Shown here: positions 8,352 through 33,364 of the stretch, piece by piece | How positions within the stretch are numbered: position 1 is the first letter of the stretch | Layout: each line of letters opens with the position of its first letter | DNA from: an uncultured Peptococcaceae bacterium | Lineage (GTDB): Bacteria > Bacillota > Peptococcia > Peptococcales > Peptococcaceae | Length of the DNA: 33,364 nucleotides | Direction of reading: 5' to 3' | NCBI GenBank assembly: GCA_949743265.1 | Contig: CATJSX010000056.1 | Span: 1-33,364 of the forward strand | Notes under the pieces: generated by a model | Seen by the model: the letters and a program-made list of their open reading frames with translations, nothing else | Databases searched by the model: none | What the model was told of the DNA's origin: nothing | Translations under genes and position numbers: made by a program

Positions 8352-10436
8352 ATGTTACGAAGCAAAGGATTGACCAATAAGCTGTGTATTTTGGGAATAG
8401 ACGGTATGGACCCGCGTTTTTCCAAAGCTATGATTGACGCTGGCAAAATGCCTAATTTAAAAAAAATGGTAGAAATGGGTTCAGCACGTAGTGATTTGAT
8501 GCTTTTAGGCGCGATGCCGACTATTACGCCGCCTATGTGGGCAACATTGGCAACAGGCGCTTATCCCATGACTCATGGTATTTTGGATTACAATTTACAA
8601 GTGAAAAATGAATTGGATTTGATTCAAGAAGCGTTTATGTCTAAATTCTGCAAAGCAGAACAGTTATGGAATATTACTGCTGCGGCTGGCAAAAAAACTT
8701 TGGTTTGGCATTGGCCAGGTGGAGCTTGGCCGCCAACTAGCGACAGTCCTAATTTGATGGTAGTAGATGGAACATCGCCCGGCGGCTTGGGTCATAATGC
8801 TCATCAGCGGGATAATGAAGTGTTAATTATCGCTACTACCAAGACCAAACAAGGCGGTTTTGTGCCTATGGCGTCCAGTACCAGTCATGTGGATTGTGAT
8901 CTCAGTGAATTGTCCATGCAGCCGTTAGCTATGACGACGAATCCCAAAGATCCGCGTATTGATGAATATTATGAAGAGTATTGTGAAGGTCTGGAATTTC
9001 AAGGCTATCTGCCACGCAAAAGTTTGTCGCTAAAAAATGGTATTTTCTATGATGATCCTAATATGCTGCATTTGGCAGATTGGAATTTGAATGTATCTCT
9101 TTCGCCGATTGTTGAACCAAACGGCTGGGCAAAAGCGCCTGCCGGTGCGAAAGAATTTACTATTTATTATGCTTACGGAAGAGTGCAAAAACCGGCGTTG
9201 ATATTGCCAAATGCACAAGGACAATATACGCAGATAGCCGTTTACCTGACAAAAGATGATGAAAAACCGTTGTATGTTTTGGATAATGATGTCTATACGC
9301 CGAATTGTCCCGACGTGATGCCGTCAGCTAAAGGGAATAACAACGTAGTGCGCAATATGCGGGCGTTAGAAATCGCTCCTGACGGCAGTTATGTGCGGAT
9401 GTGGGCAAGTTGTGCTATGGATGCTGATAACAATGATTGTTGGTATCCGCGTTGGATTTATGAAAAGATTAAAGCGAATTTTGGTCCGCCTCCAGCTACA
9501 TCTATGGCTGCTGGTCAAGATCCTGATTTGATTTTGAAATGTGTTCAAGAGCAGTGGAAACAGGCAGCAAAATGGCAAGCTGACGGTATGCAGTATATGA
9601 TGGACAATGAAGGTGTAGAAGTGATTTTCAGTCATTTTCATGGTCCCGATATGTCAGGTCACTGTTACATGAAATATTTAAAAGAGCGTGATTCTTCTGT
9701 ACGAAGTGAAGGGGAAGTACGTAGCTGGCACGAAGCGACTTATCAATGGACTGATGAATATATTGGTTCTTTCTTACCTTATATTGATCAAGGCTGGACA
9801 ATTATGGTTGTTTCCGATCATTCTCTTGTTTGTCCAGAAGCAGTACCTAATCGTATTTCTGATAATACGGGTATTAACGTTGGTGTTATGCAGGAATTAG
9901 GCTATACAGTATTGCAGAAAGATGCTGACGGCAATGATATTAAAGCCATTGATTGGGAAAAAACCCGTGCTGTACAAACTCGTTCTAATAGTATCTATCT
10001 CAATTTGAAAGGCCGCAATCCACACGGTATTGTTGATCCTGCCGATAAATATGAATTAGAAGAACAAATTATTACCGATTTATATGGTTATCGTGATAAA
10101 ACAACAGGTAAGCGTATTGTTTCTATAGCGCTGCACAATAAAGATGCAGTACTTTTGGGCATGGGCGGACCGGAAGCCGCCGATATTATTATCATGATGC
10201 ATGAAGATTACAATTTTGATCATGGCGATTCTCTTTCAACAGCTATTGGTCATAACGATACTTCTGTAGGACCAATTTTTGTAGCGGCAGGTCCTGGCGT
10301 AAAAACTGCTTATGAGATTAAGGGGTATGTGCGTGAAGTTGACGTAGCGCCGACAGCAGCCGTTTTGTTGGGTGTTGATATCCCCGCTCAATGTGAAGGC
10401 GCGCCGGCTTATCAAATTTTAACCGAGAAAATGTAA
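8352..10436 (+). CDS. Alkaline phosphatase superfamily protein (type I phosphodiesterase/nucleotide pyrophosphatase type)
   Basis: This 694-residue protein is a metal-dependent phosphohydrolase of the alkaline phosphatase superfamily, probably a phosphodiesterase or nucleotide pyrophosphatase. The expected two-metal site is complete: D17 in LGIDGMDP, nucleophile T59 in PTITPPMWATLATG, D433 and H437 in GPDMSGH, D489 and H490 in VVSDHS, and H634 in IGHNDTSVGP. About 300 residues lie between the first and second metal clusters, rich in Trp and Asp, and may form a substrate-binding cap. There is no signal peptide, so it should act in the cytoplasm. The start ATG 8352 follows GAAGGGAGT. It stands alone between two terminators. 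Substrate cannot be told from sequence. Confidence 0.82.
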   Translation: MLRSKGLTNKLCILGIDGMDPRFSKAMIDAGKMPNLKKMVEMGSARSDLMLLGAMPTITPPMWATLATGAYPMTHGILDYNLQVKNELDLIQEAFMSKFCKAEQLWNITAAAGKKTLVWHWPGGAWPPTSDSPNLMVVDGTSPGGLGHNAHQRDNEVLIIATTKTKQGGFVPMASSTSHVDCDLSELSMQPLAMTTNPKDPRIDEYYEEYCEGLEFQGYLPRKSLSLKNGIFYDDPNMLHLADWNLNVSLSPIVEPNGWAKAPAGAKEFTIYYAYGRVQKPALILPNAQGQYTQIAVYLTKDDEKPLYVLDNDVYTPNCPDVMPSAKGNNNVVRNMRALEIAPDGSYVRMWASCAMDADNNDCWYPRWIYEKIKANFGPPPATSMAAGQDPDLILKCVQEQWKQAAKWQADGMQYMMDNEGVEVIFSHFHGPDMSGHCYMKYLKERDSSVRSEGEVRSWHEATYQWTDEYIGSFLPYIDQGWTIMVVSDHSLVCPEAVPNRISDNTGINVGVMQELGYTVLQKDADGNDIKAIDWEKTRAVQTRSNSIYLNLKGRNPHGIVDPADKYELEEQIITDLYGYRDKTTGKRIVSIALHNKDAVLLGMGGPEAADIIIMMHEDYNFDHGDSLSTAIGHNDTSVGPIFVAAGPGVKTAYEIKGYVREVDVAPTAAVLLGVDIPAQCEGAPAYQILTEKM

Positions 10437-29874: not shown

Positions 29875-30999
29875 CTAAAGATTGTTTTCTTGATGCTCAG
29901 CATCGGCAGTATTAGGTAATTCAATAATAAAAGTCGTCCATAGATTTTCGCTTAAAGCAGTAATCGTGCCTTCATGAGCTTCTACGATAATTTTGGCAAT
30001 GGCTAAACCTAAGCCACTTCCGCCAGTAGTGGAAGAACGTGCGTCATCAGTCCGATAAAATTTGTCAAAGATACGTGAAAGTTTGTCCGGTGCGATAGTA
30101 ACGCCATAATTGCTAAAAACGATTCTGATTTTTTTCTCTTGTTCAAACAGAGCAATTTTGATAACGGAACCTTCTTCGCTGTAATGAAGCGCATTGCGTA
30201 AAAGATTGTCAAATACGCGCGCCATTTGGTCGCTGTCTAAAATTAGTTTGTATTGACGATCCGCTTTGAATTCAACGGTCAGTTGTTTTTTGATTAGTTC
30301 TGGATAAAATTCTTCTGCTAGTTGCTCCAGCATCATATTGAGATCGATAAGACGCTGATTAAGCGTTATTGTTTGTGTATTAAAGCGCGTCACTTCAAAT
30401 AATTCATCCAATAACATCTCCATGTGTTTGGCCTTTTTGTAAACAATACCATTGTATTTTTGATTGATTGCCAAAGGCAAATCAGCAGTTTCCTGAATAA
30501 TGCTGCTATAACCGATAATAGACGTTAAAGGCGTTTTGAGATCATGAGCTAAATAAACTACTAAATCGCTTTTCTGCTGCTCAGCTTGCTTAGCTTCACG
30601 AGAACGGCGTTGCAGCGCTTGTTTTAAGGTATTCAGTTGGTGTTCAAAAAATCTTAGATCGTTGGACATGATAATCAATTTATCATTATCATCGTCAATT
30701 TGTTCAATGGCATTATAGATTTCCGTTAGCAAGTTGATGATACGTCCCGTATAGCTATAGAGAATAACCAAAAAAAAGATGATTACCAACGCAAGACCAA
30801 GTATCGTATAATCAATATAACGCAAATCTAAGCCTAATTGGCGCCAAATAATCTCGTCTCGTACATAACGCAAATCTTGTCTAAAGAAAGTTAAAGCGCC
30901 GCTAATCATAAACATGCAGCTAAGGTAGGAAGCGACTAAAAGAAAAATCAAACGCCCAAAAAGGTTCAAACGTAATCGTAAAAAATTATTGTTATTCAA
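29875..30999 (-). CDS. Sensor histidine kinase (VanS-like)
   Basis: A 374-residue membrane sensor kinase. Two membrane helices (residues ~16-37 and ~64-84) flank a short outside loop of about 25 residues, so the signal is probably sensed in or at the membrane. The dimerisation domain carries H152 in YLAHDLKTPLTSIIGY, very like VanS. The ATPase domain has the N box DNLLRNALHYS, the DKFYRTDDARSS segment, and GGSGLGLAIAKIIVEAHEG. It starts at TTG 30999, eight bases after GGAGTGGG within the response regulator gene, and overlaps it by 8 bases. No van resistance genes are present, so a vancomycin role is not implied. Confidence 0.93.
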   Translation of the reverse strand: MNNNNFLRLRLNLFGRLIFLLVASYLSCMFMISGALTFFRQDLRYVRDEIIWRQLGLDLRYIDYTILGLALVIIFFLVILYSYTGRIINLLTEIYNAIEQIDDDNDKLIIMSNDLRFFEHQLNTLKQALQRRSREAKQAEQQKSDLVVYLAHDLKTPLTSIIGYSSIIQETADLPLAINQKYNGIVYKKAKHMEMLLDELFEVTRFNTQTITLNQRLIDLNMMLEQLAEEFYPELIKKQLTVEFKADRQYKLILDSDQMARVFDNLLRNALHYSEEGSVIKIALFEQEKKIRIVFSNYGVTIAPDKLSRIFDKFYRTDDARSSTTGGSGLGLAIAKIIVEAHEGTITALSENLWTTFIIELPNTADAEHQENNL

Positions 31000-31687
31000 T
31001 TTTATATCCCACTCCCCATACCGTTTTAATAAATTTTGGCTTACGCGGTTCTTCGTTCATTTTTTCTCGCAGCCTTCTGATATGAACCATTACGGTATTA
31101 TTGCTTTCTAAATACTTTTCCTGCCAAATCGTTTCAAATAGCATCTCTGAACTGATCACTCGTCCGCGGTTTTGGCATAAAAGCAGCAAAATCGCGAATT
31201 CAGTAGGCGTCAAATTTAATTTATTGCCATAGAGCAACGCTTCGTGAGTTACCTCATTGATGGATAAACCGTTGATTTCAATCGTTGATGTTTCCTCATT
31301 TTTAGTGGGGTGATTGTAAGTTAAATAGCGGCGCAATTGAGCTTTTACTCTAGCAACCAACTCTAAAGGATTGAAAGGCTTGGTAATATAATCGTCAGCA
31401 CCGTTAGCTAGACCAGTGATTTTGTCCAAATCGTCACTTTTGGCTGTAAGCATAATTAACGGAAAATAATCGTGGCTGCGAATTTCTCGGCACAGCGTCA
31501 TGCCATCCATGCCGGGCATCATGACATCAATAATTCCTAAAGCAATTTGGTACTGTTGATAATTGGCCAGCGCTTCTCGCGAATCATAAAATTTGACTAC
31601 CTGATAGCCTTCATTAAGCAAACAAACCTCTACCAAATCGGCAATTTCTGTTTCATCGTCAACAACTAAAATTTGAATAGCTTCCAT
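30992..31687 (-). CDS. OmpR-family response regulator (VanR-like)
   Basis: A 231-residue response regulator. The receiver domain (1-120) has the acidic pocket DDE at 10-12, phosphorylation site D54 in IIDVMMPGMDG, T/S switch in IMLTAKS, and K in ADDYITKPF. The C-terminal winged helix DNA-binding domain (~140-231) shows LTPTEFAILLLLCQNRGRVIS, then VMVHIRRLREKM and TVWGVGYKIE. The receiver resembles VanR (ITGLANGADDYITKPFNPLE). Start ATG 31687 follows AAGGAGG. It is the first gene of the pair with the kinase. Its upstream DNA holds tandem hairpins and two candidate promoters. Confidence 0.95.
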   Translation of the reverse strand: MEAIQILVVDDETEIADLVEVCLLNEGYQVVKFYDSREALANYQQYQIALGIIDVMMPGMDGMTLCREIRSHDYFPLIMLTAKSDDLDKITGLANGADDYITKPFNPLELVARVKAQLRRYLTYNHPTKNEETSTIEINGLSINEVTHEALLYGNKLNLTPTEFAILLLLCQNRGRVISSEMLFETIWQEKYLESNNTVMVHIRRLREKMNEEPRKPKFIKTVWGVGYKIE

Positions 31688-31841: not shown

Positions 31842-31869
31842 TGTCTAACAAACTATAGTTTTTTAGACA
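31842..31869. repeat. 28-bp near-perfect palindrome
   Basis: The left half TGTCTAACAAACTA (31842-31855) and right half TAGTTTTTTAGACA (31856-31869) are complementary except for one position pair. On the minus strand it is followed by TTTTTAT, so it can be read as a second terminator; as DNA it has the symmetry of a dimer binding site. It lies about 145 bases upstream of the proximal promoter of the response regulator. Confidence 0.7.
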
Positions 31870-31871
31870 AC

Positions 31872-31916
31872 AAAAAAAGAGCCGAAAAACAGCGAAACTT
31901 CGTTGCTTTTCAGCTC
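31872..31916 (-). terminator. Strong terminator upstream of the response regulator
   Basis: On the minus strand GAGC pairs with GCTC (31879-31882 and 31913-31916), followed inward by GAAAA/TTTTC and AGCGA/TCGTT pairings with small mismatches, then a run of seven T residues. It can end transcripts of the upstream unknown gene or of the promoter at 31946-31974. Confidence 0.85.
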
Positions 31917-31939
31917 AAAAATAGCAGTCTATCAAATCA
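31872..31939 (-). ncRNA. Possible short RNA or attenuated leader
   Basis: A promoter with good hexamers (31946-31974) is followed, about 65 bases after its expected start, by the strong terminator. No coding frame of note lies in between. This would give an RNA of about 65-70 bases, or, with readthrough, a long leader for the response regulator operon. It may also be simply the region between a gene and its terminator, with a chance promoter. Confidence 0.35.
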
Positions 31940-31945
31940 TGATTT

Positions 31946-31974
31946 ATTATACTATGCATGGTAAAATATAGCAA
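31946..31974 (-). promoter_or_regulatory. Promoter inside the intergenic region, leftward
   Basis: On the minus strand TTGCTA (31969-31974) and a perfect TATAAT (31946-31951) are 17 bases apart. The expected start is near 31939, only about 25 bases before the terminator stem. Confidence 0.55.
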
Positions 31975-32079: not shown

Positions 32080-33364
32080 TTATATCCGTTCAATTCGTAT
32101 TTGTCTTTGACGATTTTCTTCATCAAATATTATCCTGAGATAGCAGCCGGCTGCTGGGTAGTGTGTCCGATTATTGCCTAAAACAATTTGTTCCTTTTTC
32201 ATGTAATCAGCAATATTTTTTCTCTTTGATTGTTCTTTTATCTGACCTTCATCATCGCAGAGTACATAGCCGCCAGTAAGTGATTCTGTGAAAACGAAAA
32301 TGAATTCGTTTTTATAAGGAATAATTCCCACAAATTCCAAGGGCAACCAGCTATTTTCAGTAGTGATTTTAGTTAATGCATGAAAAGTCAATGTTTTTTG
32401 TTTAGCATCAAAAATGGCCAACTTGATGAGATTTTCTTTCACATCACGAACAATAGCGGCAAAATATTCCTGACAAATCATCTCATCATATAAAGCGTAA
32501 TCGTATGTCAACACCTCAAAGAAATCTTCTATGCTGTCGTTAAAAGCACCATAAAAACAAGATGATTTGTCGTCCATCACTTTAACAACAATCATTTCCT
32601 TATCAATCCAAAATTGTTGTATAGCCATATGATCAAATAGGGGCTCACAAATGCCGTCAGTAAATTTCATCAGAGGACTTTGCGTATCATAAGCTGTGAA
32701 AAAAAGTGAGCCTTCGTTAATGGCAGTATTGTATCCCGACCATTGCAACAAACGACGCTGATAGTCTTCGCGTCTGTCGCTCATATCATGGAGAAGAGTC
32801 ATATGACCATTGCGAAGGTCAAAGCTAATCATCCGTAAACCCATATCTAAAACCAAATAATTTTCATCAATCCAATAAGGGACGTTAAGATCATAATAAT
32901 CAGTTTCCGTCGTCTTAGGCCAAAAAGGTGAGCGCTTTGACAATTCCAACTCGTTAAACGCTGTTCCCGAAGCTTTGATAACTGCTGTTAAAATTTCTTG
33001 ATGGACACATTCACCTTTCCAATTCCACAAGCTGAGGTCAAAAAATTGATAGTATTTATCGTCGTGAGTAATCAATTGTTGGCGTTCTTTTCCTTTTGCG
33101 ACGATACCCTCATCGAATAAATAAAGTGTATAATCTTGCGGTAGTTGTTCCGTTGGTAAAACAATTTCCCGCACTAAATGGTTTTGGCAATCAATTATCT
33201 GAATGATATTATCGTTGGGTATTGCCAGCAATTGTCCGTCATTCAGCCAGAGTTCGCCACCACTGTAGGCGTAAGTTCTCGTTGTCGATTGTTGATAATA
33301 ATAGAGCAAAATAGCTCCCATACTAAAAAATAGTATGAGCAAAAATATCCCTAATGTTTTTGGC
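32080..33364 (-). CDS. Hypothetical membrane-anchored protein (5' end beyond window)
   Basis: I do not recognise this protein. The frame stays open through the right edge (PKTLGIFLL precedes a TTG at 33342), and no ribosome binding site is seen in the window, so I treat it as truncated at its start. About 428 residues are visible. A hydrophobic segment, GIFLLILFFSMGAILLYYY, is the only membrane helix, and the remaining ~400 residues are hydrophilic, rich in aromatic and acidic residues, with repeated strand-like pieces (GGELWLNDGQLLAIPNDNII, YWIDENYLVLDMG, EPLFDHMAIQQFWIDKEMIV). That suggests a beta-propeller-like domain outside the membrane, which is only inference. It lies upstream of the two-component genes in the same orientation. 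Confidence 0.6.
   Translation of the reverse strand, partial: PKTLGIFLLILFFSMGAILLYYYQQSTTRTYAYSGGELWLNDGQLLAIPNDNIIQIIDCQNHLVREIVLPTEQLPQDYTLYLFDEGIVAKGKERQQLITHDDKYYQFFDLSLWNWKGECVHQEILTAVIKASGTAFNELELSKRSPFWPKTTETDYYDLNVPYWIDENYLVLDMGLRMISFDLRNGHMTLLHDMSDRREDYQRRLLQWSGYNTAINEGSLFFTAYDTQSPLMKFTDGICEPLFDHMAIQQFWIDKEMIVVKVMDDKSSCFYGAFNDSIEDFFEVLTYDYALYDEMICQEYFAAIVRDVKENLIKLAIFDAKQKTLTFHALTKITTENSWLPLEFVGIIPYKNEFIFVFTESLTGGYVLCDDEGQIKEQSKRKNIADYMKKEQIVLGNNRTHYPAAGCYLRIIFDEENRQRQIRIERI

Follow-up and report, generated by a model that had tools for sequence, protein, structure and literature searches.

Dispersed terminators between paired palindromic sites in a Peptococcaceae genome, candidate invertible elements for phase variation

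Known inversion switches and the repeat at the window locus

The described system nearest in mechanism to the locus analysed here is the CwpV switch of Clostridioides difficile, in which the promoter lies outside and 195 bp between 21-bp inverted repeats flip between promoter and gene, an intrinsic terminator having been proposed to form in the OFF orientation only (PMC2784873). The recombinase RecV has been named in the same species (PMC7446863). In gut bacteria, the segments called invertons are flanked by short inverted repeats and often lie near genes for the enzymes; intergenic invertons mostly flip promoters, and terminators are listed as future work in the available text of that survey (PMC11892184). 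Our literature search found no paper naming an invertible terminator and, within the searches made, no dispersed terminator switch. To our knowledge, most inversion switches in bacteria act on promoters or gene ends, and the known terminator switch, CwpV, is a single locus. RecV is a tyrosine recombinase. The Mpi master invertase of Bacteroides fragilis is reportedly one small serine recombinase that flips many dispersed segments, and these segments carry promoters. REP/BIME elements are short dispersed palindromic units, some with terminators.

The window, by which we mean the whole 33,364-nucleotide stretch of DNA that was analysed, contains one copy of a dispersed repeat in the gap upstream of a VanR-like two-component operon (Table 1). 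The plan of this repeat unit is a 28-bp palindromic site, a covarying intrinsic terminator and another 28-bp palindromic site, in 112-124 bp. Judged from the genome sequence, these units are probably invertible intrinsic terminators that give phase variation in the manner of CwpV but in many copies, and the enzyme would probably be of the serine type. Whereas the CwpV switch, in the available descriptions, is one locus served by RecV, the units number at least 34, their sites are AT-centred and lie 84-96 bp apart, and the candidate enzyme is a serine recombinase. Mpi resembles the units in scale, with one enzyme for many segments, but its segments hold a promoter where the units hold a terminator; the same difference separates the units from gut invertons, in which, according to the available text, it is mostly promoters that flip. 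REP/BIME elements share short length, dispersal, palindromes and, in some, terminators, but here we find paired AT-centred sites and inverted junctions. A RAYT/REP origin was rejected, as the genome has no match to PF01797 (Y1 transposase).

Under the mechanism that we propose, the window block would be one copy of an invertible terminator, with two AT-centred 28-bp sites around a one-way terminator. A serine recombinase would cut at both ATs and turn round the 84-96 bp between them. RNA polymerase that had started at a promoter outside the unit, or had read through from the preceding gene, would reach the hairpin; in one orientation the T tract after the hairpin would stop transcription into the next gene, and in the other, where the hairpin is followed by AAAAT, transcription would pass. 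With at least 34 copies beside transporter, LysR, surface-polysaccharide and BREX genes, many traits could vary together. If this is true, many operons would be variable with one enzyme and one standard part, mixed expression of transporters and BREX is predicted in clonal populations, annotated terminators in such genomes may point either way, and a compact one-way part of about 120 bp would be available for switch building. More tentatively, and with somewhat less than even confidence, we suggest that more than 30 invertible terminators of identical plan, with one master serine recombinase, randomise transporters, LysR regulators, polysaccharides, BREX and the VanR-like system, and, jointly with this, that a genome-scale terminator-flipping layer exists in the family, of which a genome of another genus (G008) might be a second, independently built example.

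A one-way terminator between paired sites

Table 1. Parts of the gap upstream of the VanR-like two-component operon and the adjoining genes, in window positions
Feature	Positions	Strand	Remarks
Whole unit (left site, terminator, right site)	31842..31953	-	112 bp, short-spacer class
Left 28-bp palindromic site, AGTATAATAAATC-AT-GATTTGATAGACT	31926..31953	-	Outer half degenerate; central AT at 31940-31939
Terminator hairpin, 38 nt, 16 pairs	31879..31916	-	Fold; covariation over 28 units
T7 tract after hairpin	31872..31878	-	U-tract score 5.38 forward, 0.08 reverse (window copy)
Right 28-bp palindromic site, TGTCTAAAAAACT-AT-AGTTTGTTAGACA	31842..31869	-	Central AT at 31856-31855
Promoter-like TTGCTA-17-TATAAT	31946..31974	-	Reality uncertain
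VanR-family response regulator, first downstream gene	30992..31687	-	PF00072, PF00486; NF033117
Sensor histidine kinase, same operon as response regulator	29875..30999	-	PF00512, PF02518
Upstream gene, at least 420 aa, runs past window end	32080..33363	-	Ends 126 bp before unit

The earlier note, made from the window alone, had described a strong terminator with seven T residues, and this is borne out on the minus strand, where the 38-nt hairpin (31916..31879) is followed by T7 on one side only and positions 31868-31940 fold at -22.9 kcal/mol (z -3.93, equalled by 0 of 200 shuffles); an automated terminator scan listed 0 sites. The palindrome that it placed beside the terminator is a near-perfect 28-bp dyad (31869..31842) with 0 mismatches to the family site pattern, but the T5 tail ascribed to it is no family feature (at least 5 T within 8 bases after the right site in 4 of the 28 complete units), and it looks like one of two paired crossover sites rather than a second terminator. 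The repeat nature of the block (its window copy is a covariance-model match of 120.2 bits, C56:31842-31953(-)) and the second palindromic site, left of the terminator, go beyond that note: terminator and palindrome are real, but are a copy of a dispersed unit and not a local leader. The VanR-like label given to the regulator also holds (NF033117, 359 bits against a cut-off of 350). Between the unit and the start codon of the response regulator lies a separate TATAAT-like sequence (31720-31715, by eye), and because of this the main role of the window unit would be to control readthrough from the 420-aa gene upstream, which has no match in Pfam or NCBIfam, or transcription from the uncertain promoter at 31974. 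The window copy occurs in the assembly in a single orientation, the stopping one, in which the two-component operon would be insulated from the upstream gene.

With the intergenic gap as query we obtained 44 matches in the source genome (3.04 Mb, 208 contigs), and a covariance model from the 28 complete units gave 61, merged to at least 34 loci with the C98 and C33-start units counted once; the total may be an undercount, as 150 of 2474 first-look candidates were scored. Thirty-five rows were dissected, 28 of them complete; the seven omitted (C112, C206, C39b, C33-start, C27, C59 and C193b) have one site missing or weak, and several are truncated at contig ends. Two of the seven, C39b (L022:3155-3275) and C193b (L063:1490-1560), are decayed relatives in which the hairpin is kept and one or both sites are barely recognisable. 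The genus is represented by the source genome only; the 123-nt consensus had 0 matches in 12 other genomes of the family, and the exact core pattern 0 matches in the collections genome_contigs and viral_contigs, both of which perhaps leave out the source genome. Even with doubts on flipping, a dispersed terminator between paired palindromic sites is well supported.

Covarying stems, which the earlier note had proposed, are present among the copies in the source genome. Standard pairs make up 94.6% of pair cells over the 28 units, and double changes affect 8 of the 16 hairpin pairs, with 29 cells against 10.1 in shuffles (0 of 500 as high), a lenient control since the sequences are related and the structure was taken from one of them; slid versions of the test gave at most 4. 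As in the CwpV proposal, termination is predicted in a single orientation: the U-tract score is higher forward than reverse in 34 of 35 rows (mean 4.63 vs 0.30), and in the inverted unit the hairpin is followed by AAAAT. By these measures the terminator is one that is selected as RNA, with a predicted one-way action. The exception is the unit at the start of C33, with T tracts on both sides of the hairpin. This C33/C98 unit (L030:1-121, and the start of L029) is a genuine two-way terminator or else the product of two halves folded back.

The flanking inverted repeats by which invertons are recognised are found in all 28 complete units, as two palindromic 28-bp sites each. A central AT occurs in all 56 sites, 28 left and 28 right, with a mild bias toward this result because the consensus used for picking sites assigns 4 of its 26 scored positions to the centre. 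Such a centre fits, as expected, what a serine-recombinase crossover site would require, and half-sites that start with TGTC may resemble those of resolvases. An early reading as an 11-6-11 XerCD-like site was dropped in favour of a serine-type AT-centred site, because the inverted junction in contig C151 diverges right after the AT. The site pattern (up to 3 mismatches) has 40 matches in the genome, all inside terminator units by inspection, and its reversed control has 0. Measured from start to start, the sites of 6 units are spaced by 84 bp and those of the other 22 by 93-96 bp, roughly 8 and 9 helical turns, a regularity that is only suggestive and of limited weight, since the copies share ancestry. 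The two cores of one unit often have identical bases at just the central AT or slightly more. Over 13 positions the inner half-sites carry 17.5 bits and the outer ones 13.9, and the degenerate outer half-sites are the unit borders.

Inverted junctions and the candidate recombinase

At two loci the assembly joins a unit to its surroundings both ways round. Contigs C47 and C117 share a flank; in C47 it abuts the left inner half of the unit and in C117 the right inner half. When the C47 unit is inverted in silico about its central ATs, it equals the start of C117 over 107/107 bases (60/60 beyond the centre); uninverted, it agrees at 77/107 (30/60 beyond the centre). Contig C151 begins with flank, unit and reversed flank, such that the left AT is preceded by the same 75 bases that, reversed, follow the right AT, and its inner halves differ from the first base past the AT. 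Three further contig ends (C112, C206 and C33-start) break off a single base beyond a central AT. These junctions, at 2 of the at least 34 loci, are assembly facts rather than read counts, and chimeric reads or mixed strains could contribute to them. From them we infer inversion, and the joining of units both ways suggests a switch that would turn neighbouring genes on and off. Frequent and reversible flipping, a resulting change in expression and the flipping of the window copy itself would follow from the proposed mechanism.

The candidate enzyme is a small serine recombinase of 191 aa (C149:5334-5906), the gene for which starts 311 bp after the C68 unit, C68 and C149 being joined via identical 99-base ends. 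Both its domains exceed the Pfam cut-offs (PF00239 Resolvase, 126.6 bits; PF02796 HTH_7, 24.2 vs 23.8). Its nearest solved relatives are a DNA invertase (1.3e-25), presumably Gin, and gamma-delta resolvase, with both of which its Ser and Arg region aligns; the roles of the aligned Ser and Arg residues we assume from general knowledge. As would befit a likeness to Mpi, the NCBIfam Mpi-family model NF009949 aligns with it near full length (E 3.9e-20), but the score of 72.4 bits against a cut-off of 272 indicates that it is not a member of that family. Matches to the NCBIfam models of the mobile-element recombinases XisF, CcrB and IS607 are weak and all below cut-off. We consider this protein the likely enzyme for the units, acting on their sites, an assignment made from one adjacency; with crossover points about 95 bp apart, the DNA loop would be a short one.

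Other recombinases occur in the genome. Its seven PF00239 matches include two small recombinases and three other large serine recombinases, and there are 12 PF00589 matches (tyrosine recombinases). The second small serine recombinase (L084, C85) was rejected as the enzyme, having no site-like sequence nearby, and so were the tyrosine recombinases, as the inverted repeats around C118 and C34 differ from the 28-bp site. Tyrosine recombinases, the class of RecV, are thus present, but the recombinase beside a unit is of the serine type. In C118 itself (L088:3027-3312), 22-bp inverted repeats with a spacing of 242 bp lie between the end of a tyrosine recombinase gene and a large surface-protein ORF, an arrangement that looks like a classic invertible promoter.

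Neighbouring genes, relatives and competing explanations

Among 35 context entries, the terminator is codirectional sense in 11 (10 without the hairpin-only C193b) and codirectional antisense in 8, while 5 are divergent, 1 is convergent and 10 are cut by contig ends; in 24 of the 25 complete contexts, C193b included, a gene start faces the unit. We scanned 27 start-facing genes and found 11 CitMHS or Na_sulph_symp transporters (one beside C193b), 5 LysR regulators and 2 genes without a match, the rest falling in families seen once or twice (BrxA, O-antigen ligase, UbiA, hexapeptide transferase, ABC components, BadF and FMN reductase). Genes for a glycosyltransferase, acyltransferase and O-antigen ligase follow or flank the C47, C82, C97 and C124 units. 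A BREX operon (BrxA, BrxB, BrxC, split PglX, PglZ and BrxL) lies downstream of the C79 unit; brxA, which opens it, has its start codon 30 bp past the end of the unit. Transporter, regulator, surface-polysaccharide and BREX contexts are typical of phase variation. Ten neighbour proteins are 42-56% identical to a phosphodiesterase-like protein in the window (8352-10436), and in the spacers from phosphodiesterase to transporter gene the unit is sense in L002, L004, L005, L008 and L024 and antisense in L022 and L026; the transporter of L004, unmatched in Pfam and NCBIfam, shares 33% identity with the L008 one. Across the genome, such phosphodiesterase-like proteins form an expanded set in which each is paired with a CitMHS/Na_sulph_symp transporter. 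The PglX of the C79 operon (L149:5036-10106) is split into an 862-aa N part and a 443-aa C part, between which lie 172-aa and 191-aa HEPN-like (PF18736) ORFs.

Orthologues of the recombinase (E 1e-30 or better) occur in 10 of 46 genomes of the class, 9 of these being in the 13-genome family, and among these family genomes only the source genome and G008 show site-terminator-site blocks by the patterns used. At 8 of 11 recombinase loci from named MAGs (7 titled Peptococcaceae, 1 Clostridia) the orthologue is 71-74% identical, and in all 8 it is divergently adjoined by an ArgS-like gene (by eye; argS confirmed for L096). None of the 8 has an AT-centred palindrome of at least 11/13 pairs nearby, and therefore the gene in these relatives is not next to a unit. 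Such a palindrome near a recombinase was found at only one of the 11 loci (L101:2144), where a 12/13 AT-centred palindrome lies near a 30%-identical serine recombinase of another MAG.

In G008, which belongs to another genus of the family, the orthologue is 72% identical. A first site there came from a pattern search with 1 true and 1 control match (the latter in G010) outside the source genome, and by itself would carry no weight; a second AT-centred site, however, lies 126 bp away, and the interval holds a perfect hairpin and T6 (z -7.34, 0 of 200). The two sites pair at 9 and 8 of 13, which makes them weak palindromes, and the terminator bears no sequence relationship to the one in the window. 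Upstream of this unit is an extended -10-like TATAAT (by eye); downstream come the ribosome-binding site of a 156-aa gene and, after that gene, one for an 897-aa surface protein that has thioester and SpaA domains. Run over 46 genomes, a pattern describing the complete architecture matched 12 times in the source, at one place (both strands) in G008 and once in G003, with 0 control matches, the pattern having been written after G008 was seen, so that its match there is not independent. The G003 match was set aside as chance (its sites pair at 5 and 2 of 13). An extended site pattern derived from G008 had 0 matches in 21 genomes of the order.

The main rival to an invertible terminator is a cassette that moves rather than flips, that is, a miniature mobile element in which a terminator with palindromic ends is copied or moved by a recombinase or transposase and inserts either way, with no flipping in place. 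The scatter of at least 34 copies over one genome, against none in 12 relatives from the family, would suit such an element, as would both orientations at similar gene pairs, the sub-cut-off resemblance of the recombinase to the XisF, CcrB and IS607 models, and the greater degeneracy of the outer half-sites (13.9 vs 17.5 bits), as if the inner halves travelled and the outer ones were target. We nevertheless consider it unlikely: it leaves unexplained that one flank is joined to both unit ends at C47/C117 and C151, and the genome has no Y1 transposase. An assembly artefact, with plain repeats as units and junctions inverted by repeat collapse around hairpins, might be expected in a draft of 208 contigs, where repeats break contigs, and the unit at the C33/C98 ends, with its T tracts on both sides, may be just such a fold-back. 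However, the overlaps at C98/C33 and C68/C149 are both exactly 99 bases long, which suggests an assembler word size too long for fold-back at a 38-base hairpin, and the C47/C117 junction lies at the site AT, outside the hairpin, and is exact over 107 bases; we judge this account improbable.

Less probable still is a regulon in which a dimeric transcription factor would bind the palindromes as operators and the terminator would serve as a leader attenuator, ordinary or regulated. The 28-bp dyads and the functionally alike neighbours (11 of 27 start-facing genes CitMHS or Na_sulph_symp, 5 LysR) would agree with it, but all 40 pattern sites lie in terminator units and none alone at a promoter, the terminator is antisense in 8 of 18 codirectional spacers (C193b left out), and inverted junctions are not predicted. 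The attenuated leader of the two-component operon envisaged by the earlier note survives in so far as termination would limit readthrough into the operon, but a locus-specific attenuator is unsupported because the same block occurs at 34 or more loci, in both orientations relative to its neighbours. That note's other proposal, a small RNA of 65-70 bases from a promoter at 31974-31946, we regard as scarcely credible. The TTGCTA-17-TATAAT sequence is indeed there, 10/12 in match and the best of seven promoter-like sites, with the terminator about 70 bases on; its standing as a promoter is another matter, as seven sites in 2 kb is the shuffle level (7.0, sd 2.9), its TATAAT falls within the degenerate left-hand, recombination-type site (31953..31926), and a -10 of at least 5/6 at the left site plus a -35 of at least 4/6 occurs in 2 of 28 complete units, the window copy included. 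A small-RNA gene is therefore unsupported, the copies having no common promoter and the block no Rfam match at gathering score. The sole Rfam match in the window is a TPP riboswitch at 2807-2909 (56 bits; cut-off 54.3), which precedes genes of the thiamine type.
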